IMG/VR virus record: IMGVR_UViG_3300002835_000958
Coordinates: 1-26,042 of that record
Strand: one strand, 5' to 3'
Source: a virus
Length of the DNA: 26,042 nucleotides
Part shown: positions 3,656 through 20,214 of the stretch, piece by piece
How the letters are laid out: every line of letters begins with the position of its first letter
How positions within the stretch are numbered: position 1 is the first letter of the stretch
Translations under genes and position numbers: made by a program
The notes under the pieces: model-generated
Databases searched by the model: none
Seen by the model: the letters and a program-made list of their open reading frames with translations, nothing else
Told to the model about the DNA's origin: nothing

Positions 3656-4489
3656 ATGTCAAAAAAGAAACGCTTTAAGCAACAGTCAAACCCACAGCCG
3701 AGGCCTCAAGCGGCAAGGTTCAAGCTTGCAGTTTGGACGCCATCCCTGACCGGAACGTTCAACGTCGGGTACGTCAATTCAATTCTAAAGATGCAGGTTG
3801 AGGCCCAGAGGGTCGGAGGAAAGTTTTCCTGGGGCGTTGTTCCGGGGATTTCAATACTTCCGGTCGCAAGGAACAGGTCAGTAGTCGAGTTCCTTAAGGG
3901 GGACGCGACGCACTTCATGTTCTTGGACTCAGACGTGGGGGTCAACGCGCAAGACGTAATGGTTTGCGTGCTGTCTGGTCTTGATTTCACGGCACTGCCG
4001 TATTCCAGAAGGGCGTTCGACCCAGCGCGAGCGCTCTCCATTATCCAGGGGACCCCAGGAATTGAGCCAAAAAGCATTGCCTCGATCCTAGCTCGACCGG
4101 CGTTTGAGTTCCACGGGACTGAGCCGAAGGAAATCGATCCAGAAATCTCGGAGCTTGGCTTTGTTGTTTGTGACCGAGTCGGAACCGGAGCGATGATCCT
4201 TCGACGAGAGGTGTTTGAAAAAATGGCGCCAATCGTTGACGAGTATTTTGACCTCATGAACGAAGAGCAGGAGACCATTACGACCAAAAACTTCTTTGGG
4301 TATTCACGCAAGGAAGGATATTTTATTGGCGAAGACTGGACCTTCTGCGACCAATGGACATCCCTTGGCGAAAAGATTTACCTTAAGGTCGACGCAAAGA
4401 CCTCACATGAGGGAAGCATCCAGTACGGATACGACTTCCAGGCCCTGGCCGACATAGCAGCAAAGGCAAAAGACGATGCAGGGGCCTAA
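3656..4489 (+). CDS. glycosyltransferase, GT-A fold (GT2-like), 277 aa
   Basis: After a basic, disordered N-terminus (1-20) the protein follows the GT-A plan. A beta-strand with FLDSD carries the DxD-type metal site (D91, D93). GTGAMILRREVF (177-188) matches the segment near the acceptor site, and GEDWTFCDQW (225-234) is the usual (E/D)D-containing motif before the catalytic helix. The final KTSHEG contains the late His seen in many family members. No membrane helix is present. It directly follows a small membrane protein and lies 1.1 kb from a GT7-like enzyme, suggesting a sugar-transfer module. Donor and acceptor are unknown. Confidence 0.75.
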   Translation: MSKKKRFKQQSNPQPRPQAARFKLAVWTPSLTGTFNVGYVNSILKMQVEAQRVGGKFSWGVVPGISILPVARNRSVVEFLKGDATHFMFLDSDVGVNAQDVMVCVLSGLDFTALPYSRRAFDPARALSIIQGTPGIEPKSIASILARPAFEFHGTEPKEIDPEISELGFVVCDRVGTGAMILRREVFEKMAPIVDEYFDLMNEEQETITTKNFFGYSRKEGYFIGEDWTFCDQWTSLGEKIYLKVDAKTSHEGSIQYGYDFQALADIAAKAKDDAGA

Positions 4490-8204: not shown

Positions 8205-8585
8205 ATGACTGATAACCAAGACCGCTGGGTTGGCGACGTCCCCCATTCCTGGAAGGGCGGATACTGGGGAGCGACCTGTCCGTTTTACGCCGACCATGGC
8301 CCGATGTGGGTTACCAAGGATGAGCTTTACGTGTGCTCTCACCGGGCGCACGACGGATTCTGGGGCAATATGCCAGACCTGCCTGGCTACGCAAAGCTAA
8401 GAGAGCAGTATCCTGACGGCATCGTTCCTGTGACCAAATCTTATTGGAGATCGTCCGATCTTGTCAGGCATTACTGGCCGGATGACCCAGCGGCAGGGAG
8501 CCAAGCCATCCGGCAGGAAGTATTATCACCGGATTACGAGTCAATAGATGGATTAGAGAATCCTGCGCTAGAAGCTAATTCTTAG
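8205..8585 (+). CDS. hypothetical protein, 126 aa
   Basis: I do not recognise this protein. It is soluble, rich in aromatic residues, and has CPFYADHG and CSHRAHDG about 18 residues apart (about 25-50), a possible Cys/His zinc site. The C-terminal half is polar, with a helix (SSDLVRHYWPDDPAAGSQAIRQEV). The start is fixed by the -10 element 6 nt upstream. It converges with the small minus-strand gene at 8575, overlapping it by 11 nt. No paralogue is visible in the window. Confidence 0.6.
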   Translation: MTDNQDRWVGDVPHSWKGGYWGATCPFYADHGPMWVTKDELYVCSHRAHDGFWGNMPDLPGYAKLREQYPDGIVPVTKSYWRSSDLVRHYWPDDPAAGSQAIRQEVLSPDYESIDGLENPALEANS

Positions 8586-8784
8586 CCCTCACGACAGCGA
8601 TCCACCCCGCCTCCATGTCGTCAAGCGTAGCGTAAATCTCCCCAAGCTCGTCAGTCAGAACGAATGAAGATCCATCCTTGTTAGGCGCAACGTCAACCCC
8701 AGGCATATCCAAAACGCCGGAAAGGTGGATTGCGTACACCAAGTCGGTTGGCGGCTCAGGATAGGTTTCCTCGATTTTGGCCAT
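8575..8784 (-). CDS. small acidic hypothetical protein, 69 aa
   Basis: A longer frame is open from 8982, but TATACT (8796-8791) ends exactly 6 nt before the ATG at 8784, and the extra upstream part would be antisense to the ParB-like gene. The 69-aa product is acidic and soluble with a beta-rich look (DLVYAIHLSGVLDMP, then SSFVLTDELGEIYATLDDMEAGWIAVV). It has no recognised family. As a single minus-strand gene with its own promoter it fits the pattern of a phage moron. Confidence 0.55.
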   Translation of the reverse strand: MAKIEETYPEPPTDLVYAIHLSGVLDMPGVDVAPNKDGSSFVLTDELGEIYATLDDMEAGWIAVVRAKN

Positions 8785-8790
8785 TTCAGT

Positions 8791-8796
8791 AGTATA
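8791..8796 (-). promoter_or_regulatory. -10 element of the 8784 minus-strand gene
   Basis: TATACT on the minus strand is a strong -10 match. It is followed by 6 nt and then the ATG at 8784. No SD sequence intervenes, so a leaderless mRNA is expected. It lies back to back with the plus-strand promoter at 8813. Confidence 0.55.
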
Positions 8797-8809
8797 CAAC
8801 AGAAACCTG

Positions 8810-8824
8810 TGATAACATCTACCC
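8810..8824 (+). promoter_or_regulatory. extended -10 of the 8825-16074 operon
   Basis: TGA-TAACAT (8810-8818) is an extended -10 element. The hexamer 8813-8818 ends 6 nt before ATG 8825, and there is no SD. It is the only clear promoter in front of the long ten-gene operon. A recognisable -35 is not seen, which fits extended -10 promoters. Confidence 0.55.
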
Positions 8825-9517
8825 ATGGAATCAAATATTGCGCAGGGGATTTCACATCTCGCCATCCCTCTTTTCGACGTTGCCCCGCACCCTAAAAATG
8901 CGCGACGCGGCGATGTAGAGAAGATTGCCGAGAGCCTGAAGAAGTTTGGGCAGCAAAAGCCCATCGTTGCCCAGAAAGGCACAAAATTCGTTATTGCCGG
9001 TAATCACACTTGGCATGCGGCGAAAAGCCTTGGATGGGAGACAATTGCGTGTCACTTCACTGACTTGTCGGAGAAGGAGGCGCAGGGGTATCTAATTGCA
9101 GACAACCGCACAAGCGACCTGGCAGAGTATGACCCGAAGGCGCTGGCGAGGTTGCTCGTTGACATGAGAACCGGCAATGATCTCGAGGGAACGGGATTCA
9201 TGAGCTCCGACGTAGATGCAATCCTGAGGGAAAGTCTCATCTTGGCAGACGAGGTTGGATCATTCCTTGATGATTTCATCTCGTCTCTTGGCGACGGGCC
9301 AGACCAGGTCCAGGGCGCGGAGCTCGACGGGGAGAGACTGGTGAGGCTGTCTTACGAATCAGCCGGTGGTAGGCCGGTTGCAATTAAAAAGCTTAATGTT
9401 ACCGAAATGATTAGTCTCATGAGGGGAATCGATAGTGCCAGGGACAAATTCCGAGTGGAATACCCAGGAGAGGCATTGTCAAAAATCGTAGAAGATTGGA
9501 GCGAGGAAAATGGCTGA
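8825..9517 (+). CDS. ParB-like nuclease-domain protein, 230 aa
   Basis: Residues 12-115 form a ParB/Srx-type domain: HPKNARRGDVEKIAESLKKFGQQKPIV, then FVIAGNHTWHAAKSLGW with the GNHxxHAA signature of phage ParB-like proteins, then GYLIADNRTSDLAEYD. In this superfamily the GxxR/GNHR region binds nucleotide or phosphate. Many phage copies have no known job, though some act as nucleases or regulators. The C-terminal 110 residues are unlike chromosomal ParB: there is no obvious HTH, but a late acidic helix. It heads the operon and overlaps the cupin gene by 8 nt. It resembles, but is not identical in layout to, the protein at 19690. Confidence 0.8.
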   Translation: MESNIAQGISHLAIPLFDVAPHPKNARRGDVEKIAESLKKFGQQKPIVAQKGTKFVIAGNHTWHAAKSLGWETIACHFTDLSEKEAQGYLIADNRTSDLAEYDPKALARLLVDMRTGNDLEGTGFMSSDVDAILRESLILADEVGSFLDDFISSLGDGPDQVQGAELDGERLVRLSYESAGGRPVAIKKLNVTEMISLMRGIDSARDKFRVEYPGEALSKIVEDWSEENG

Positions 9518-9956
9518 GCTACTTAAGATTATCAATGTTGCGGAGTTGGCGCTTGCTAAGCCCGACACCGCCATTCCCGTGGTCGGAGCGGACGCGCGTG
9601 GGCAAAACATCGCCACCAACGGGAAGCTTGGTGCAGACATCCTTTGGGTTCCGTCCAACGCATCCTTCCCAATCCACACCCACCCAGGCGACCATCTCTT
9701 GATGTGCCTTGAGGGTGAGGGGACCATCTCGTTTGATGGCCAGAAGATTGATGTTCGACCTGGCGACATGTATATGATCCCTGGCATGATTCCTCATGCA
9801 GTAGGCGCAGGCGCTGCAGGCCACGTTCTGCTTGCAATCGGTAGCCCACATAAGCCGGTGGACGCCCCTGATCGAATGAAGCCAACCGACTGGCAGGGAA
9901 ATGCCGTAGAGGCCCCGATATTCGATGACAGCGAGGCGAAGAAGCAGGACGAGTAA
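9510..9956 (+). CDS. cupin-domain protein, 148 aa
   Basis: Residues 44-112 form a single conserved cupin barrel. Motif 1 includes FPIHTHPGDHLLMCLEGEG (about 52-71), with the two His and following Glu expected to bind a metal, and motif 2 includes PGDMYMIPGMIPHAV (about 85-100) with its His. Small cupins can be isomerases, dioxygenases, sugar-binding proteins or metal-dependent regulators; the sequence does not decide. The C-terminal 30 residues are polar and acidic. It overlaps the ParB-like gene by 8 nt and touches the amidoligase start by 1 nt, so it belongs to that pathway. Confidence 0.85.
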   Translation: MAELLKIINVAELALAKPDTAIPVVGADARGQNIATNGKLGADILWVPSNASFPIHTHPGDHLLMCLEGEGTISFDGQKIDVRPGDMYMIPGMIPHAVGAGAAGHVLLAIGSPHKPVDAPDRMKPTDWQGNAVEAPIFDDSEAKKQDE

Positions 9957-10846
9957 TGCCTGTGGCAGGGCTTACATACGGACTCGAGCTAGAATGGGCC
10001 GACACAACGCGCTCAATAGAGCTGCCGAGTGACCTTGCCTCGTGGAACCTGTTTGAAGATACGATCGTGAATAGCGACGGGACGTCAAACGATCAACTCG
10101 GAGACAGGGGTGGTAAGGGCGGGGAAATTAATACTGTCCCAAGCGAAAGCGGAGATCGTCAGGTAGAGATTGCAAGTTCGCTAATCAAGCTGTTTACTGA
10201 TGCCGGGTGCCCCCCAACAGTGAACTTTAAGACTGCCATGCACGTGCACATTGGGTACGACGGGGTAAAAGAAGATCTTGGGGCAATGAAGTCGCTGATT
10301 AGCTATGTGTCCAAGTACCAGGTCGAACTACTCTGGTCGACATTTAAGCTTTCGGAGCCTAAACCGCAGCACTATGAGTCGATGGATGACTACAGGTTTG
10401 CATTGGAGTATTTCCGAAAGTATACGGTTCCGTACCGCGGCCATGTCTATTCTCCGGAGACAGCTAGCCGGGCGCTATCGGCTTCGACTATTGACGAGTT
10501 CTTTGACATTATCCGGCCCATCCAGGATGAATTTGATGAGACGGATCGATCGTTCATCAACCTGTCAAGTATCGAGAAGAATGGAACCATCGAATTCCGA
10601 CAGTTCTCATCTACGACAAATACCGATCAGGTTCGTGACGCAATAGACTGGTGCGCCGCGTTTGTCAAAGAAGCGCTTGGCGAGCAACGGCATCCCCTAG
10701 AATTCATGAACGACCAATACTATGATTTTCCAGACCAGCTGCACATTGACGCTAAGCTGGAGAGGGCGTACCGAGAAGATTATCTTTTGAACGCGACAGG
10801 AGACCACGCAGTGTCGCTCAGGAGCAGGGAGGCAAAATGGCGATAG
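9956..10846 (+). CDS. putative amidoligase (Amidoligase_2 family), 296 aa
   Basis: The order of motifs fits the amidoligase branch of the glutamine synthetase/GCS fold: YGLELEW (8-14), SDGT (40-43), GGEINTVP (55-62), MHVHIGYD (95-102) and GTIEFRQFSSTTN (210-222). The Glu, His and Arg in these motifs bind Mg-ATP and the carboxylate in the family. Members are predicted to join a carboxylate to an amine through an acyl-phosphate; substrates are mostly unknown. TAATG joins it to the cupin gene, and it overlaps the next gene by 10 nt. Next to an aldehyde dehydrogenase and a GNAT domain it may build or modify an amide-linked small molecule or side chain. Confidence 0.75.
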   Translation: MPVAGLTYGLELEWADTTRSIELPSDLASWNLFEDTIVNSDGTSNDQLGDRGGKGGEINTVPSESGDRQVEIASSLIKLFTDAGCPPTVNFKTAMHVHIGYDGVKEDLGAMKSLISYVSKYQVELLWSTFKLSEPKPQHYESMDDYRFALEYFRKYTVPYRGHVYSPETASRALSASTIDEFFDIIRPIQDEFDETDRSFINLSSIEKNGTIEFRQFSSTTNTDQVRDAIDWCAAFVKEALGEQRHPLEFMNDQYYDFPDQLHIDAKLERAYREDYLLNATGDHAVSLRSREAKWR

Positions 10847-11616
10847 AGATCAAGGAGATTAACTGGAGAATCCCATTTGCCTTGCGCAACTATGGTCCCA
10901 ACTACATGACCTACGGATTTGAAAGAGCAGCAGAGCCATCAACGACTTGGTGGGGCCTGCATGTTGACGGGAATCTTGTCTCGTTTGGCCGACTTGACAT
11001 CCCGCCACGCGGGGCATGCACGCTGGGCTCTCTTTGGACAATGCCAGAGTACCGCGGCAAGGGATACGGCAAAATACTTGTCGAGCACCGGCTGAAACTC
11101 GTCGGCGACCGAGACGTTAAGACAATAACTAGAGCTGCTGAAATATATGAAAAGTTTGGATTTGTCAATGCGGGTATTGTCGCGCAGAGAGACGAGGGAA
11201 CTTGGTTCCGGATGATTCTTAAGCGAGGAGCTCCTGGCAAGCTTTCGAAGCGGGCAATCATTGTCGATATCGACGAGACGCTCATTGATAGCGAGGGGAA
11301 TACCATTCAGTCAACAATGGATTGGGTTCAGGAGAACAGAAAAGGTAGGTCCGTTATTATTTTGACTGCGAGGGCTGAAGAGTCAAGGGAGCGCACCGTG
11401 GAAAGCCTAAAGAAGGCCGGTATAAAGTATGACGAGTTGTTCATGAGCGACCTTCCTGCCGGTGCGTATGTAGAGTCAAAGCGCTGGAGAGTTAATAAGC
11501 TACTCGAGGATAACTACATCCTGGACATGGCAATAGACGACGATCTCGACGTGCGAAAGATGTACGAATCGCTTGGTGTTGGCGAAGTAGTCGACCCGGA
11601 GGAACTCAATGGATAG
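10837..11616 (+). CDS. GNAT acetyltransferase-HAD phosphatase fusion, 259 aa
   Basis: Two domains are joined. Residues 1-130 are a GNAT fold: LGSLWTMPEYRGKGYGKIL (63-81) contains the acetyl-CoA loop RGKGYG, and AAEIYEKFGFVNAG (100-113) is the usual late GNAT motif. Residues 138-259 are a HAD phosphatase: VDIDETLID (143-151) has the nucleophile D144 and acid D146, ILTARAEES (175-183) is motif II, and AIDDDLDV (232-239) supplies the last metal-binding aspartates. The HAD part resembles that of phage polynucleotide-kinase phosphatases. All key residues are present, so both halves should be active. The substrate might be acetylated and dephosphorylated in sequence. GGAGG precedes the start, and both ends overlap neighbours. 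Confidence 0.85.
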   Translation: MAIEIKEINWRIPFALRNYGPNYMTYGFERAAEPSTTWWGLHVDGNLVSFGRLDIPPRGACTLGSLWTMPEYRGKGYGKILVEHRLKLVGDRDVKTITRAAEIYEKFGFVNAGIVAQRDEGTWFRMILKRGAPGKLSKRAIIVDIDETLIDSEGNTIQSTMDWVQENRKGRSVIILTARAEESRERTVESLKKAGIKYDELFMSDLPAGAYVESKRWRVNKLLEDNYILDMAIDDDLDVRKMYESLGVGEVVDPEELNG

Positions 11617-12958
11617 CCTTGATATTCTAACTTTCGACCCGAGGACCGGGGAGTCAAGAGCTAAGTTTGAGTCTGCCAACGCAAAGACGGTAATGGAGGC
11701 GCTTTCCTCTGCGCGGACGGCCCTTCCAGGCTGGGCTAATTTGACTTACGCCGATCGATCAAAGTTCATGTTTCAGCTGGCCGATGGCATGGAGCGAAGG
11801 ATCGATGAGCTTTGCATGTTTGAGTCGATGAACACCGGGAAGCCAAGATCGCAAGCCCTCAGTGAAATAAACCACGCGATCGACACTATTCGTTTTTTTG
11901 CTGGTGCAGCCCGAACGCAAACGTCTACAATTCCAGGCGGCTATATGGAAAACACATTTTCGTATGTGACAAGAGAGCCAGTTGGGGTTGTTGGAGTCAT
12001 TCTCCCCTGGAATTACCCGACAGTTATTTGGGCCTGGAGGATTGGGGCAATCCTCGCCTCCGGATCAACAGCAGTAGTAAAGCCAGCAGAGCAAACCCCG
12101 TACTCTGCGGTACTCCTACAAGACATCTGTCTCGAGAACCTGCCATTGGGCGTCGTATGCACAGTACTCGGCGGAGAGGAGACCGGCAAGGCAATGACAT
12201 CAGCAAACTTTGACTGCATCGCTTTCACCGGATCCACTTCAGTCGGCAGGGAGATCTCCAGGGAAGCATTCCCGGCAAAAACATCTCTAGAGCTTGGTGG
12301 TAACGGACCAGTAATATTTTTTGAAGACGCCCCCGGCCGAGCGGCAAAAGATATCGCTGCGGCTGCGCTCTACAACAACGGTCAATCCTGCGCAGCTCCA
12401 GCACGTGTTATCGCTGTTGGCAAAGCCGCCTTTGAGAGGGCTGCCAGGGAGCTAACCGAGGAATTTTCTTCGGTGCCAACGAACATGCCGTCAATCAGCA
12501 TTGAGCAGGCGGAGAAGATTGAGAGATTCATCTCCGAGACCAGCGGTGACGTAGTCCGGGGTACCACGACCCAAGAACCCGGGAAAGAAGACCGGGGGTA
12601 TTGGGTAAAACCAGCCCTTGTGATTAACCCATCGCCAGTGGACGACGTTGTTTCCTGCGAGGTATTCGGACCGGTCCTGACGGTTCAGCTTGCGTCCGAT
12701 CTTCGGCAGGCTGTTGAGATGGCAAATATGTTTGGCCCCGGGCTCTCTGGTTCGGTATGGGGTTCCGATTTGACAAACATCAAGGTATGCGAGCAGGCTA
12801 TGGATGTAGGTGAAGTCTGGGTCAACTGCCACCTTGCCCAAACGCCAGAGATACCGCATCCCGGAAGAGGATTGAGCGGAAACGGTGCCGACATGGGGGC
12901 CGACGCAATCCGAGAGTACCAGCACGTCAAGGCAGTACACGAGAGGTACGCACGATGA
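11609..12958 (+). CDS. aldehyde dehydrogenase (NAD(P)-dependent), 449 aa
   Basis: The protein has the complete ALDH plan. It has PWNYPTV with N135, VVKPAEQTP with K158, the cofactor loop FTGSTSVGREI (206-216), the general base in LELGG (E228), the nucleophile in NNGQSCAAP (C261), and the cofactor-holding Glu of EVFGPVL (E351). It is somewhat shorter than the usual 470-500 aa, mainly in the segment after the catalytic Cys. It would oxidise an aldehyde to an acid with NAD(P)+ and looks closest to the betaine/aminobutyraldehyde-type enzymes, though substrate cannot be read from sequence. ALDH is rare in phages. GGAGG lies before the ATG and both ends overlap neighbours (8 and 4 nt). Confidence 0.93.
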   Translation: MDSLDILTFDPRTGESRAKFESANAKTVMEALSSARTALPGWANLTYADRSKFMFQLADGMERRIDELCMFESMNTGKPRSQALSEINHAIDTIRFFAGAARTQTSTIPGGYMENTFSYVTREPVGVVGVILPWNYPTVIWAWRIGAILASGSTAVVKPAEQTPYSAVLLQDICLENLPLGVVCTVLGGEETGKAMTSANFDCIAFTGSTSVGREISREAFPAKTSLELGGNGPVIFFEDAPGRAAKDIAAAALYNNGQSCAAPARVIAVGKAAFERAARELTEEFSSVPTNMPSISIEQAEKIERFISETSGDVVRGTTTQEPGKEDRGYWVKPALVINPSPVDDVVSCEVFGPVLTVQLASDLRQAVEMANMFGPGLSGSVWGSDLTNIKVCEQAMDVGEVWVNCHLAQTPEIPHPGRGLSGNGADMGADAIREYQHVKAVHERYAR

Positions 12959-13803
12959 GGCGTAGGTACCCGGGGCTTGATATCACCAACAATGGCACAA
13001 TCGCCACGAATACGCGCCGAGGGAAGAAGTGGGACGACGTAACAATTTGGCAAGCATATGACGAAATTGAGAAATACGTCCCTACGTCGTGGCTTGAAGA
13101 CAGGATCGACGAGGCAACCCGAAGGATTGAGCTGGCTAAGCAGAAGTATCCCGGGAAGGTAACAGTCGGGTGGAGCGGCGGCAAGGACGCGCTCGTCGCA
13201 GAGCGGGTTCTGAGGATCGTTGGCTACGACGCCGGTGTTGCGGCCCTGTATCGCTGCGCTAAGGTCGCCGAGATGCACGAGTACGTCGCCGACCACAAGC
13301 CGGAAAAAATCGAGATAATCGAGATAGGGCCAGATAACTCCTGGGTCATTAAGAATAAAAACAGCGTTTGGGGACAAAATCCTCCAGCGAAACTTGCGAA
13401 TTTCCACGCGCCAGCGCAAAGGGAATGGTGCTATAAGAACAGGTCGGCGCTGCACATCACGGGTAGGCGGATGGACGACCAAAACCACTGCGGCAAGCAC
13501 GACAGGAACCTGGGCGGAGTTCAAGCCCCGCGCGGCAGGGGAACTGTAAGCCTTGCGCCAATCTACGACTGGTGGCACGAAGAAATACTGGCCGCCATTA
13601 AGTACTTTAATCTCAATCTGGCCCCTACATATAAGGGCCAGTACGGATTCATTATCGGGTCAAACAGTAATTGGGTTGACCTGGCTGACCTTGTTGGAAG
13701 ATCCGATATAACTCTATTCCCGACTATTGTAGAATTTAGAGATTGGATTGGACGGGTTGCCCCCAAGAGCATTCCGGAATTTGATGAGATTATGAGCGCA
13801 TGA
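12955..13803 (+). CDS. PP-loop ATPase, PAPS reductase-like (adenine nucleotide alpha hydrolase fold), 282 aa
   Basis: The P-loop VGWSGGKDALVA (71-82) with SGGKD is the PP-loop of the ATP pyrophosphatase/PAPS reductase superfamily. QREWCYKNRSALHI (about 159-172) and the Cys/His set in DDQNHCGKHD are candidates for substrate or metal binding. Family members activate substrates by adenylation or reduce PAPS; examples in nucleic-acid chemistry include DndC and tRNA thiolation enzymes. There is no C-terminal ECGLH-type motif as in classic PAPS reductase. It overlaps both neighbours by 4 nt (ATGA), directly next to a second, longer PP-loop protein. Confidence 0.8.
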   Translation: MRRRYPGLDITNNGTIATNTRRGKKWDDVTIWQAYDEIEKYVPTSWLEDRIDEATRRIELAKQKYPGKVTVGWSGGKDALVAERVLRIVGYDAGVAALYRCAKVAEMHEYVADHKPEKIEIIEIGPDNSWVIKNKNSVWGQNPPAKLANFHAPAQREWCYKNRSALHITGRRMDDQNHCGKHDRNLGGVQAPRGRGTVSLAPIYDWWHEEILAAIKYFNLNLAPTYKGQYGFIIGSNSNWVDLADLVGRSDITLFPTIVEFRDWIGRVAPKSIPEFDEIMSA

Positions 13804-15197
13804 CAGAAGAGCAGAAGAGCCACTTTGACATTAACCCAGACACGTTCTGGGAGAGTGCGGCTTCGGCCAAACACGGCACGAAGGACCAACGTGAGTACGC
13901 GCCCAATAGCGTTCGCCGTCGCGTTGGAATTGGGAAGAATGTGTGGGAAGCAGCCCTGGACAGGATGAGGTTTATCTTTGCAAACTTCGAGGAGGTCGTC
14001 GTATCGTTCAGCGGCGGCAAGGATAGCACCGCGACCATGATGGTTGCCTACGAGGTCGCAAAAGAGCTAAACAGGCTCCCGCTCCGCGTTATTTTTATTG
14101 ACGAAGAGGCTATCCCGTACCAGACCGAAGAGTACGTCCGAAGGGTTTCTCAACTTCCAGGAGTTCAGCTCGATTGGTACTGCCTGCCGATTCGACACCG
14201 AAACGCTTGCTCAAGGGAAAACCCGTGGTGGTTCCCATGGGCACGAGAGGAGCAGGATAAGTGGGTACGTCCAATGCCACCAGAGGCAAACGCAAGAATT
14301 GACGAACAGCCAGTGCTAAAAGAGTGGATGGAAAGGGCACACGCTGATCCAGAGCTTCGTGTCATGTACCCGGACATCAACGACATCATGGCCGACCCTG
14401 CTGGAACTGGAAAAAAGACGATCATGCTTATCGGACTGCGCGCGCAGGAGAGCATCCGAAGAATGAGGCTTGTGTCGAAGCGTCCTGGCTCCAAGGCCAA
14501 TTACATTGTTACCGACGGGATCGATAAGCACGGAGTTCAGCTTAAATCGCAAAAGTACACACCGAGGATCTTCAAGGGATATCCGGTCTATGACTGGACG
14601 AATAACGACATCTGGACAGCGGTTAGGAAGTTTGACTGGGACTACAACCAGTTGTACCGACACATGGTCATGGCGAAAATCCCCGTTAACAAGGTTCGAG
14701 TTGGTCCTCCCTACGGCGAGGAGCCGATGATCTCTCTTTGGATGTTCTCAAAGGTCGCACCGGAGGTCTGGGACCGCATGGCCCACCGTGTTCCCGGTGC
14801 AAACACTGGCGCAATGTACGCCCATACCGAGCTCTGGGGCGTTGGAATCCCACCGAAGCCTACTGACTTGAGCTGGGAACAATATATGGTGCACTACATT
14901 AAAAAGTTCCGGCCGGAGGATCAGAAAGTTATTGCGAAGCGAATTCGAAGATGGATTGGGTGGCACCACGCTAAGACCAACGATCCGATACTGCCAAATG
15001 CTCCGCATCCGCTCACCGGGATAAGTTGGGGCTTCCTCATGAGCGTGGCAATGCGTGGAGATTTCAAGAACCGGAAGGAGCCACCAGCGCCAAAGACCAC
15101 CGAGCGAGAAAAGGCGATGGTAGAGAACTACAAGATCGAGTATCGTATGCTTGCTGAGAGCGGAGAGCTTTCAACCTGGAGAGTAAAGAGGGGATAA
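13800..15197 (+). CDS. IbrA-like PP-loop protein (PAPS reductase domain, DUF3440-like), 465 aa
   Basis: Residues 50-170 carry the PP-loop VVVSFSGGKDSTATM (66-80), and FIDEEAIPYQTEEYVRRV is the segment following the second strand. Further on, LIGLRAQESIRRMRLV matches the GxRAQES signature of the IbrA family, and VYDWTNNDIWTAVRKFD is the matching C-terminal PAPS reductase motif. The last third corresponds to the extra C-terminal region of IbrA-type proteins. In E. coli IbrA, with IbrB, activates expression of prophage eib genes; the chemistry is not established. Here it is followed after 1 nt by an IbrB-like gene, as in the known pair. Confidence 0.83.
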   Translation: MTEEQKSHFDINPDTFWESAASAKHGTKDQREYAPNSVRRRVGIGKNVWEAALDRMRFIFANFEEVVVSFSGGKDSTATMMVAYEVAKELNRLPLRVIFIDEEAIPYQTEEYVRRVSQLPGVQLDWYCLPIRHRNACSRENPWWFPWAREEQDKWVRPMPPEANARIDEQPVLKEWMERAHADPELRVMYPDINDIMADPAGTGKKTIMLIGLRAQESIRRMRLVSKRPGSKANYIVTDGIDKHGVQLKSQKYTPRIFKGYPVYDWTNNDIWTAVRKFDWDYNQLYRHMVMAKIPVNKVRVGPPYGEEPMISLWMFSKVAPEVWDRMAHRVPGANTGAMYAHTELWGVGIPPKPTDLSWEQYMVHYIKKFRPEDQKVIAKRIRRWIGWHHAKTNDPILPNAPHPLTGISWGFLMSVAMRGDFKNRKEPPAPKTTEREKAMVENYKIEYRMLAESGELSTWRVKRG

Positions 15198-15198
15198 T

Positions 15199-15720
15199 AT
15201 GGAAAAGGTAATAGGACGAGATAAGCAGCCGCTAGCGAAGGTTGAGTGGGTCGACCGCAATACGCTTCGTGCAAACGACTACAACCCAAATCACGTAGCG
15301 CCGCCAGAGCTTGAGCTGTTGAAGCTAAGCATCATGGAGACAGGCTGGACACAGCCGATCGTAGCGCGCCGAAGCGGGGAGATTGTCGACGGATTCCACC
15401 GATGGACATGCTCCGGAGACCCAAGGGTCGGTGAAATGACAGACTTCCTTGTTCCGGTAGTGTTCATCGATGTCGATGCAGCCACGCAGCGTATGGCAAC
15501 GATTCGGCACAACCGCGCACGCGGTAGCCACGGCGTGGTCCGGATGGCTGACATTGTTGCCGAGCTTGCCGACGATATGAAGCTCCCAAAGGCCGAGATT
15601 ATGCGACGCCTTGGAATGGATAACGAAGAGTTTGAGCGGTTGCTTGACCGCGGAGATATCATTAAGCGCCTTGCAAGAGATGATTTTAACGAGGCGTGGG
15701 CACCAGAGGAGGATAAGTAG
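15199..15720 (+). CDS. IbrB-like ParB-domain protein, 173 aa
   Basis: The first 100 residues are a ParB/Srx domain: NTLRANDYNPNHVAPPELELLKLSI (13-37), WTQPIVARRSGEIVDGFHRW (43-62), and MATIRHNRARGSHGVVRMADIV (about 93-114). The order NDYNPN, VAPPE, DGFHR and the RARGSH block is the pattern of IbrB partners. The rest (115-173) has a helix with a HTH-like look (PKAEIMRRLGMDNEEFERLLDRG). GAGGGG gives it an SD and it starts 1 nt after the IbrA-like gene. A regulatory or nucleic-acid-acting role together with IbrA is inferred. The last base of its stop is the first base of the next GTG. Confidence 0.82.
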   Translation: MEKVIGRDKQPLAKVEWVDRNTLRANDYNPNHVAPPELELLKLSIMETGWTQPIVARRSGEIVDGFHRWTCSGDPRVGEMTDFLVPVVFIDVDAATQRMATIRHNRARGSHGVVRMADIVAELADDMKLPKAEIMRRLGMDNEEFERLLDRGDIIKRLARDDFNEAWAPEEDK

Positions 15721-15869
15721 TGGTTAAGGCAGTAGGTCATCTTATCGGATTTATCGGTGCTGGGCTTTTGTTTTATGGAGTCTTCGAGCTAAATAAGTTT
15801 ATTGGCGCGGGACTTCTTCTGTTCTCCGTGTCCCAGGCGGCTATTCGGTATGTCGAAAGCCAAGGGTAA
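15720..15869 (+). CDS. small two-helix membrane protein, 49 aa
   Basis: A GTG at 15720 shares its G with the TAG stop of the IbrB-like gene, and the frame runs 49 codons. The product begins MVKAVGHLIGFIGAGLLFYG (helix 1, about 5-22), then a short loop FELNKF, then IGAGLLLFSVSQAAI (helix 2, about 27-42), ending in RYVESQG. This is a typical two-helix inner-membrane hairpin. Coding is supported by the 1-nt overlap and the strong hydrophobic pattern. It could anchor a product of the operon at the membrane. Confidence 0.55.
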   Translation: MVKAVGHLIGFIGAGLLFYGVFELNKFIGAGLLLFSVSQAAIRYVESQG

Positions 15870-16074
15870 AGAGGCAGCCGTCTCGGCGATAGAGCGGCTC
15901 AGGGCGGTGCTCCAAAGCGGCTTCGCTAGCGGTATGTTCTCGGCGCCGAACAAAAGCGACGTGCTTGTTCGCGCGGCATACCTCCGCGGGGTGTCCGACT
16001 CTATTGACATAATCCAGGAAGAAATAGATTCCAGGGCAGTTGTAGTCAAGTACAACTCATCGATTTCGGATTAG
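15850..16074 (+). CDS. small hypothetical protein, 74 aa
   Basis: The frame opens at 15802, but the first part would lie wholly inside the membrane protein gene; ATG 15850 gives a sensible 20-nt overlap and is preferred. The product starts basic (MSKAKGKEAAVSAIERLR) and continues as long amphipathic helices with a GVSDSIDIIQEEID segment. No known family. It is the last gene of the operon; a new promoter follows at once. Confidence 0.5.
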   Translation: MSKAKGKEAAVSAIERLRAVLQSGFASGMFSAPNKSDVLVRAAYLRGVSDSIDIIQEEIDSRAVVVKYNSSISD

Positions 16075-16075
16075 G

Positions 16076-16104
16076 TTGCAGTTCCGACTAGACTCGGCTA
16101 GACT
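16076..16104 (+). promoter_or_regulatory. sigma70-type promoter for the DUF932 gene
   Basis: TTGCAG (16076-16081), 17 nt spacer, TAGACT (16099-16104) is a good -35/-10 pair. A second TAGACT lies 10 nt upstream (16089-16094). Transcription would start near 16111, just before the strong SD GAAGGAGGTG (16111-16120), giving a very short leader. Confidence 0.6.
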
Positions 16105-16124
16105 GTACCCGAAGGAGGTGCCTT

Positions 16125-17099
16125 ATGGCCCACGAAGTAGAAAGCATGGCGTTCGTCGGAAACCGAGGTTTGCCCTGGCACGCAGGAGCAACCGCAGGCT
16201 TAATTGAAAATCTTGCCGACCTAGCGAAGGCCGACCAGATGATTGCGGCTGCTAAGCTCGGATGGAAGGTGAACCAGATGCCGATCGTTGTTGACGGGAT
16301 CGGTGCGCACATCCCAGACAAGGTGGCAAACGTCCGCGATTCTGACCACAAGGTGCTGGGCATCGTCAGCCAGCGGTATAAGGTCGTCCAGAACGATCGA
16401 ATCTTTGAGTTTGCTGAGGACCTGTGTGGTGTCGGCGGGCGATTTGAGACAGCTGGATCTCTTCGCAACGGGGAGATTATCTTCTCCTCAATTGAACTGC
16501 CGCATGACTTTGTCGTCGATGGGGACGTGAGTAAGGTAAAGACATATCTTCTTGTCTCAAATGGCCACGACGGAATCCACGCCTTCAAGGCCTGCATTAC
16601 TCCGGTGCGAGTCGTCTGCATGAACACCCTTAACGCTGCGTTCCGTGGCGCCAAGGACAAGTTCTCTATTCGCCACACCGAAAACATTGCCGGAAGGATC
16701 AACCAGGCCCGTGAAATCCTTAAGCTTACGACATCCTACATGGATGACTTTAAGGTCATGGCAAACAACATGGCACACACCGTAATCACAATCCCAGAAG
16801 GGCTGGCTATGGTGAAGAGCATCTTCCCGCTCACTGAGGACGAGAAGCGCGGTGGGGCAGAGATGTCTATCAATGCCCAGAAAGTTATGGGTAATTGGCT
16901 CGAGTCGCAGAACATTGAGTCTGTCCGCATGACTAAGTGGGGGCTTTGGAACGCGATCACTGAGTTCATTGACCACGGGATGGCCTACCGCGGCGGAAAG
17001 ACGAGCTCAGTCTCCGACGCAAAGGCAGAGTCTATTTTGTTTGATGGGTACGCAGCGAGAGCTAAAAAGGCCTCGCTCGAATCTGTCATGAGTTCTTGA
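16125..17099 (+). CDS. DUF932 family phage/plasmid protein, 324 aa
   Basis: The protein matches the DUF932 (phage/plasmid-like, TIGR03299-type) family throughout. It has an N-terminal 'FVGNRGLPWHAGA' opening, the GIVSQRYKVVQNDRIFEFAEDL segment (about 77-100), GRFETAGSLRNGEIIFSSIELP, then VRVVCMNTLNAAF (about 163-175) and a helical C-terminal half. The biochemical role is not settled; members sit in phages and plasmids beside DNA-metabolism genes. A canonical promoter and one of the strongest ribosome binding sites in the window suggest high expression. It is followed by a gap of only 7 nt. Confidence 0.83.
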   Translation: MAHEVESMAFVGNRGLPWHAGATAGLIENLADLAKADQMIAAAKLGWKVNQMPIVVDGIGAHIPDKVANVRDSDHKVLGIVSQRYKVVQNDRIFEFAEDLCGVGGRFETAGSLRNGEIIFSSIELPHDFVVDGDVSKVKTYLLVSNGHDGIHAFKACITPVRVVCMNTLNAAFRGAKDKFSIRHTENIAGRINQAREILKLTTSYMDDFKVMANNMAHTVITIPEGLAMVKSIFPLTEDEKRGGAEMSINAQKVMGNWLESQNIESVRMTKWGLWNAITEFIDHGMAYRGGKTSSVSDAKAESILFDGYAARAKKASLESVMSS

Positions 17100-19689: not shown

Positions 19690-20214
19690 ATGCCAGAAGA
19701 CATTAAGATCCTTCAAGAGTCAATAGAGATGGTCGATACAGACTCCATCGACCCCCACCCAGAAAACCCACGGGTTGGAGATATCGGGGCCATTATCAAC
19801 AGCATGAGAACTAATGGGTTCTTTGGAGCCCTAATCGCCCAGAAGTCTACTAGGCACGTTCTGGTCGGAAATCACAGGCTTCATGCGGCAACATGGCTAA
19901 AAATGCCACAAGTCCCGGTTATTTGGGTAGATGTCGATGATGTTAAGGCAAAAAAGATCATGCTTGCAGACAACCGAGTTTCTGACCTGGGGAGCTATAA
20001 CGACGACGTCCTGCTCAGCCTGATTAAGGACCTTACTGACGAAAAGGTCAACGTTGCCGCGCTGGGGTACGACGACGACGATATTGAAGACATCATTAAG
20101 CGGGCAAATGAGCCGATGGACCTAAACGTGGAGGCCGAGCCGGAAAAGAAAGATCGGGTTGCTCGATGCCCCCAGTGCAACTTCGAATTTACGCCTAGCA
20201 GACCAGGTCGCTAG
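19690..20214 (+). CDS. ParB-like protein with C-terminal zinc knuckle, 174 aa
   Basis: A ParB/Srx domain covers residues 10-110: IDPHPENPRVGDIGAIINSM, VLVGNHRLHAATWLKM with the GNHRxHAA signature, and IMLADNRVSDLGSYNDD. An acidic linker with DDDDIEDIIKR follows, then a basic tail with CPQCNFEFTP (about 157-166), a half zinc knuckle. This layout, close to the terminase genes, is common in phages. A role in packaging control or DNA cutting is possible; nothing in the sequence proves catalysis. Its start is fixed by the leaderless-type promoter. It overlaps the minus-strand gene at 20195 by 20 nt. Confidence 0.82.
   Translation: MPEDIKILQESIEMVDTDSIDPHPENPRVGDIGAIINSMRTNGFFGALIAQKSTRHVLVGNHRLHAATWLKMPQVPVIWVDVDDVKAKKIMLADNRVSDLGSYNDDVLLSLIKDLTDEKVNVAALGYDDDDIEDIIKRANEPMDLNVEAEPEKKDRVARCPQCNFEFTPSRPGR

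Follow-up and report, generated by a model that had tools for sequence, protein, structure and literature searches.

We identified a phage operon that probably encodes a route from L-cysteine to a sulfonamide acid, set among genes of the DNA-modification type. The operon lies in the window, which is a fragment 26,042 nucleotides (26 kb) long from the record of an uncultivated virus (IMG/VR IMGVR_UViG_3300002835_000958), and consists of eight plus-strand genes at positions 8825–15720 that overlap or abut and encode, in order, the ParB-fold protein ParB1, a metal cupin, an amidoligase, a GNAT acetyltransferase-like domain fused to a HAD domain (GNAT-HAD), an aldehyde dehydrogenase (ALDH), a small PP-loop ATPase, an IbrA-type PP-loop protein and a second ParB-fold protein, ParB2 (Table 1). 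Sequence comparison well supports the view that the cupin and ALDH are, each independently, specific relatives of the enzymes SbzM and SbzJ. In the sbz pathway, SbzM converts L-cysteine to 2-sulfamoylacetaldehyde, SbzJ oxidises this aldehyde to 2-sulfamoylacetic acid, and the GNAT enzyme SbzI attaches the acid to an amine (PMC6331615). Natural sulfonamides are rare, and we found no literature linking SbzM relatives to phages, the two papers found that name SbzM dealing with it in actinomycete antibiotic clusters only.

The window cupin carries the invariant histidine ligands H56, H58, H62 and H96 and shares 47–49% identity over a 102-residue core, together with the metal motifs HTHPGDHLL and HAVGA, with the cupins of three sbz-type Streptomyces clusters (L252–L254). 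A survey of 393 Streptomyces genomes using a related cupin (PDB 9ug7) as query found the family in 11 only, and these three of the 11 loci resemble sbz or sbz-like clusters, recognised by gene content and not by the published sequence of SbzM itself. Locus L253 encodes a class I tRNA synthetase, two AMP (adenosine monophosphate) ligases, two carrier proteins, a GNAT protein, a methyltransferase, a PLP (pyridoxal phosphate) enzyme, a cupin and an ALDH, which is the gene content described for SB-203208 biosynthesis (PMC6331615). The window cupin also gave a profile match to 9ug7 (E = 8e-43); we set 9ug7 aside as SbzM, since sbz-type cupins are only 44–48% identical to it. Among bacterial genomes, the same cupin is found chiefly in biosynthetic clusters of actinomycetes, close to ATP-grasp, AMP-ligase or polyketide synthase/nonribosomal peptide synthetase-like genes, and such neighbourhoods have been listed for SbzM homologs (PMC9113183). 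Additional SbzM-type cupin clusters from Streptomyces and other actinomycetes (L214–L222), many with an adjoining ALDH, contain DUF3050-like and ATP-grasp-like proteins or an AMP ligase and are candidate sulfonamide natural-product clusters. A cupin search in sequenced phages found none.

The ALDH retains the catalytic residues C261, E228 and N135 and is 39–41% identical to the ALDHs of sbz-type clusters. In five of five Streptomyces genomes, each with 16–24 ALDHs, the closest match to the window enzyme was the cupin-adjacent ALDH, and the same was true of the ALDH from a second phage locus (L198); the cupin-adjacent enzymes scored 290–325 bits with the window query and 318–359 bits with the L198 query, and the next best reached at most 258 bits. 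In a maximum-likelihood tree, five phage ALDHs form a clade with six SbzJ or cupin-adjacent ALDHs (100/100 support), and 20 other Streptomyces ALDHs fall outside it; the window ALDH sits on a long branch, yet its placement inside the clade is well supported. Two SbzM-type cupin cassettes (L195 and L196) have a nearby ALDH that belongs to a different branch of the tree, and these were rejected as SbzJ-type and left out of all counts. The tree also leads us to reject the analogy with putrescine use put forward in the initial annotation: the ALDH groups with SbzJ-type enzymes of cysteine-derived sulfonamide pathways, and the PuuC model scores 194 bits on it against the 850 needed.

These relationships suggest a four-step scheme. 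The cupin would oxidise and decarboxylate L-cysteine to 2-sulfamoylacetaldehyde, like SbzM, and the ALDH would convert this to 2-sulfamoylacetic acid, like SbzJ; we consider these first two steps probable by homology. In the third step, where the sbz pathway relies on an AMP ligase, a carrier protein and SbzI, the phage would turn to its ATP-dependent amidoligase and GNAT domain; both PP-loop proteins, as adenylating enzymes, may help activate the acyl group and transfer it to an amine, and the HAD domain may strip phosphate left by activation or serve the acceptor side. The fourth and weakest step concerns the acceptor, which would be phage nucleic acid with the two ParB-fold proteins as guides. 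Genomic context makes nucleic acid, most likely phage DNA, a plausible acceptor that we stop short of calling probable, and the pathway as a whole, in which a cysteine-derived sulfonamide acid is built and then attached to an acceptor, is possible and a shade more doubtful still. The most specific version, in which phages make a primary sulfonamide group (2-sulfamoylacetyl) from cysteine and link it covalently to the bases of their own DNA through a PP-loop/ParB machine, is unlikely; to our knowledge, a sulfonamide on DNA bases is a nucleic-acid chemistry known in no organism.

Six of these genes (ParB1, cupin, ALDH, small PP-loop, IbrA and ParB2) recur jointly, in shuffled order, in unrelated phage contigs. 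An IbrA alignment search of viral contigs yielded 80 loci, of which 78 include ParB2 and 53 include ParB1. Among 88 IbrA loci, 52 carry a cupin-fold gene, which belongs to one of two types and in 46 of the 88 is a two-domain cupin different from that of the window; among 88 amidoligase loci none does. A terminase gene was recognised no more than 5 kb away from at least 47 of the 88 IbrA cassettes. When the window cupin type was used as query, all 19 further viral loci were ParB1/IbrA/ParB2 cassettes (one contig begins inside IbrA), and in several the ALDH adjoins the cupin; at L198 the order is ParB1–cupin–ALDH–IbrA–PP-loop–ParB2, followed by terminase genes. SbzJ-type ALDHs are found in 6 of 22 cassettes that have the window cupin type and in 0 of the 73 that lack it (p = 9e-5; 4e-4 once one duplicate is dropped). 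The amidoligase and GNAT-HAD were found at this position in the window and two near relatives only, and a GNAT-HAD search of sequenced phages found zero. From these counts, six of the eight genes keep recurring as a set, the amidoligase and GNAT-HAD being added to it locally; the ParB1–cupin–PP-loop–IbrA–ParB2 core is widespread, and ALDH, amidoligase and GNAT-HAD are variable additions to it. The earlier proposal of a dedicated pathway, for which joint travel of the genes in other phages was the suggested check, is thus supported by six of the eight. IbrA relatives are also present in 215 sequenced phage records. One is Mycobacterium phage Gaia, culturable in M. smegmatis, in which the IbrA-type gp103 is followed by gp104 (L226:7269–9505 for the two genes together), annotated as an ectoine synthase/ParB multidomain protein; we confirmed the ParB2 part of gp104, and the cupin profile reached only E of about 0.01.

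The cassette context bears on two further explanations. The sulfonamide arm could yield a free small molecule directed against the host or rival phages, a function unrelated to DNA modification. SB-203208-type sulfonamides inhibit isoleucyl-tRNA synthetase, kin of the cupin–ALDH pair reside in antibiotic-type clusters, and a sodium:solute symporter gene lies beside the IbrA cassette in 10 of 88 cases (L007, L013, L116 and others, from gut and other phages). We nevertheless regard this explanation as quite unlikely, with an operon that lacks scaffold-building enzymes, has ParB and PP-loop proteins as partners instead and belongs to a cassette type found near terminase genes in at least 47 of 88 instances. 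More improbable still is a role in host metabolism or regulation, as a PAPS reductase for sulfate assimilation or as IbrA/IbrB transcription co-activators. Such roles agree with the usual family annotations (Escherichia phage PhiR5_2 IbrA/IbrB and phage PAPS reductases), but leave unexplained the recurrent cupin, the ALDH pairing, the amidoligase and the near-constant IbrA–ParB2 association.

Both PP-loop proteins retain the SGGKD nucleotide loop. Alignment of the small PP-loop family shows SGGKD, GRR and W-HE to be invariant, and its fold matches are sulfurtransferases including TtuA and LarE, and also PAPS reductase; these matches are only supportive because the model is of low confidence (predicted local distance difference test score, pLDDT, 61.5). 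IbrA shows weak similarity to DndC (E = 9e-8) and retains C128 in 99% of 108 sequences, and no matches to DndA, DndB, DndD or DndE were detected among the nine operon-region proteins tested. The DndC similarity and the sulfurtransferase-like fold would suit a nucleic-acid modification cassette without any sulfonamide, in which the cupin and ALDH act on some other substrate, for example another thiol or an amino-aldehyde, and the PP-loop pair transfers sulfur to, or aminates, a base or the backbone. The two-domain cupin of the other IbrA loci points the same way, as does the best NCBIfam model for the ALDH, aminobutyraldehyde dehydrogenase, albeit far below its cut-off. Set against this is the independent, specific kinship of both cupin and ALDH with the sbz pair, and we judge this alternative unlikely, although it is the strongest of those considered here.

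Evidence for a DNA-linked acceptor comes from the amidoligase. Its AlphaFold model (pLDDT 83) has glutamine synthetase and YbdK as top PDB folds, and the protein matches phage family members linked to ADDT with tblastn E values of 1e-20 to 1e-44, and the family profile, which includes the window's own protein, with E = 8e-92. ADDT is the amino acid:DNA transferase of thymidine hypermodification. Within 8 kb of 88 related viral amidoligases (L021–L111) we found ADDT in 70 cases, TET/JBP in 43, HMUDK in 18, a low-molecular-weight-phosphatase-like gene in 36 and a thymidylate-synthase (TS)-like gene in 18, counts that rest on profiles made from cluster members identified by Pfam. A DAO oxidoreductase is another frequent neighbour of the ADDT-linked phage amidoligases. 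The ADDT, TET and HMUDK neighbours tie the window amidoligase family to DNA hypermodification, and it seems likely that ADDT-linked members catalyse an amide-forming step in thymidine hypermodification. The suggestion in the initial annotation that a group is attached to a base gains weight from these neighbourhoods; the unusual base itself remains putative.

The same neighbourhoods raise the prospect that the window is a classical thymidine hypermodification system seen in part, with the ADDT, TET or HMUDK genes outside the sequenced contigs. The proximity of ADDT to most related amidoligases and the fragmentary contigs favour this account, which we nonetheless hold improbable: neither the window nor a 31-kb relative (G001), both incomplete genomes, contains an ADDT, TET/JBP, HMUDK or TS-like/hydroxymethylase gene (best E 0.25), and the window amidoligase is instead packed into an IbrA cassette. 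Amidoligases are also known in modules suggested to modify peptidoglycan or protein, as in LUZ24-type phages (PMC11945000). A peptidoglycan module was rejected as a model for the window, since no LUZ24 protein matches the amidoligase family profile (best E 0.19; gp18 0.24) and we see here neither the ATP-grasp nor the gamma-glutamyl cyclotransferase that accompany the amidoligase in that module. Peptidoglycan or protein modification is the least probable of the alternatives.

Six other amidoligase loci (L023, L024, L025, L027, L045 and L052) encode LuxE, LuxC and a class III aminotransferase, some with QueD/FolE, in phages that hold one to four amidoligase copies. A possible function of these loci is acid-to-aldehyde-to-amine conversion of a side chain on a 7-deazaguanine-type base. 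For a 287-residue protein of the LuxC/LuxE clusters, an assignment as DpdA received no support from Pfam or PHROGs and was dropped, and an amidoligase match at L156 was ignored as weak (E = 3e-6) and lying over an antisense open reading frame (ORF).

ParB1 matches the ParB part of ParB-type II DNA methyltransferase fusions (PADLOC MTase_II, E = 2e-15), and ParB1-like genes lie beside IbrA and also in seven of the amidoligase loci that have TET or ADDT. ParB together with TET is known from phage Tonitrus (PMC11955845). Because ParB1 kin are fused to DNA methyltransferases and lie near TET or ADDT, a nucleic-acid acceptor is preferred on circumstantial grounds. A third ParB-like gene in the window (19690–20214), close in sequence to ParB1, adjoins the terminase genes.

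Several observations weigh against the proposed route from cysteine to a sulfonamide-bearing nucleic acid. Identities of 40–49% are insufficient to fix the substrate of the cupin or ALDH. Most cassettes with the window-type cupin have no SbzJ-type ALDH, so that in those the pathway may stop at the aldehyde or yield some other product. BLAST of GNAT-HAD against the sbz clusters gave zero matches and a relative of SbzI was not found, nor are an AMP ligase and a carrier protein among the annotated proteins of the operon. The amidoligase occupies a long, poorly supported tree branch within its family. ADDT, TET, HMUDK and TS-like genes occur in 0 of 80 IbrA loci, which implies that the two links to DNA modification were drawn from separate phages and come together in the window lineage only. 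Finally, the window and its relatives are incomplete genomes.

The packed genes themselves are under strong constraint. Two related contigs, G001 (31 kb) and G002 (18 kb), have identical gene order and about 89% nucleotide identity (88–92% over the operon), and comparison with them gives a ratio of nonsynonymous to synonymous substitution (dN/dS) of 0.00–0.03 for all eight genes with zero indels, which argues that these are functional genes and not chance ORFs. The two contigs are very close kin and therefore not independent evidence that the genes belong together. A nucleotide search of sequenced phages with the window returned zero matches. The operon has a G+C content of 0.531, the same as the remainder of the window (0.52–0.53).

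All genes and domains named in the initial annotation are present, with nine genes, not ten, in its range and eight of them packed, the successive overlaps being 8, 1, 10, 8, 4 and 4 nucleotides, then a 1-nucleotide gap. The ninth ORF is set apart by 81–129 nucleotides after ParB2, depending on whether it starts at ATG 15850 or TTG 15802, and has no family match in Pfam or PHROGs. An extended −10 element had been placed at 8813; the TGTGATAAC string does precede ParB1, ending about 10 nucleotides upstream of its ATG, and we rate this promoter as weak. A consensus scan of 8500–16300 found no plus-strand sigma-70-like site and two sites in total, both on the minus strand, against 4.9 expected in shuffles.

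Table 1. Genes of the operon and the ORF that follows it, in window coordinates
Feature	Position	Strand	Matches and remarks
ParB1, ParB/Srx-fold protein, 230 residues	8825..9517	+	PHROG 723 E 6e-42; Pfam ParB_N E 2e-5
SbzM-type metal cupin, 148 residues	9510..9956	+	Cupin_2 E 6e-13
Amidoligase_2, glutamine-synthetase-fold ligase, 296 residues	9956..10846	+	PF12224 E 6e-8
GNAT acetyltransferase-like domain fused to PNKP/acid-phosphatase-type HAD, 259 residues	10837..11616	+	PF00583 E 3e-11; PF03767 E 1e-8; PHROG 415 E 2e-15
SbzJ-type ALDH, 449 residues	11609..12958	+	PF00171 E 4e-108
Small PP-loop ATPase, PAPS-reductase-like, 282 residues	12955..13803	+	PF01507 E 0.016; SGGKD loop
IbrA-type PP-loop protein, PAPS_reduct + DUF3440, 465 residues	13800..15197	+	PHROG 2302 E 1e-77; PF01507 E 2e-13; PF11922 E 6e-11
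ParB2, near-constant IbrA partner, 173 residues	15199..15720	+	PHROG 2159 E 3e-61
Small ORF, unpacked	15850..16074	+	dN/dS 0.02 (purifying selection)

Downstream of the operon lies a DUF932 gene (16125–17099); other DUF932 genes neighbour the amidoligase loci L026, L067 and L094 and the IbrA loci L119, L141–L143, L148 and L156. Upstream are two conserved genes (1887–2522 and 3656–4489), for a group 7 glycosyltransferase and for a member of PHROG 1574, whose products could have a modified base or the virion as their target.

The presence of SbzM and SbzJ kin in a phage operon with DNA-modification-type partners points to a concrete, testable substrate (cysteine) and product (2-sulfamoylacetate), and with them to a mass signature, for genes otherwise annotated as PAPS reductase or ParB. 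If correct, the proposed route would give a role to the widespread phage IbrA cassette, and the link between phage amidoligases and ADDT is useful for predicting hypermodified phage DNA.

The combination of genes fits none of the systems tested, which comprise thymidine hypermodification, Dnd, LUZ24-type modules, putrescine use and the full sbz cluster. With the sbz pathway of SB-203208/altemicidin it shares a homologous cupin and ALDH with the same metal and catalytic motifs, the retention of both as a pair and the presence of a GNAT domain; the phage-borne operon differs in lacking an AMP ligase, carrier protein, tRNA synthetase and PLP scaffold enzyme and in having amidoligase, PP-loop and ParB genes in their place. 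Phage thymidine hypermodification clusters, built on 5-hydroxymethyldeoxyuridine kinase, ADDT/aGPT-Pplase and TET/JBP, likewise include related amidoligase and ParB genes, but their ADDT, HMUDK, TET and TS-like genes were not found in the window or its 31-kb relative. Dnd/Ssp phosphorothioation similarly pairs a PP-loop PAPS-reductase-like protein with a ParB-fold protein, whereas the nine operon-region proteins tested give no DndA, DndD or DndE match and the window operon combines two PP-loop and two ParB genes with a cupin and an ALDH. Prophage IbrA/IbrB is the same kind of pair, IbrA with a ParB-like partner, and the window version is distinguished by its position inside an eight-gene operon with biosynthetic enzymes.

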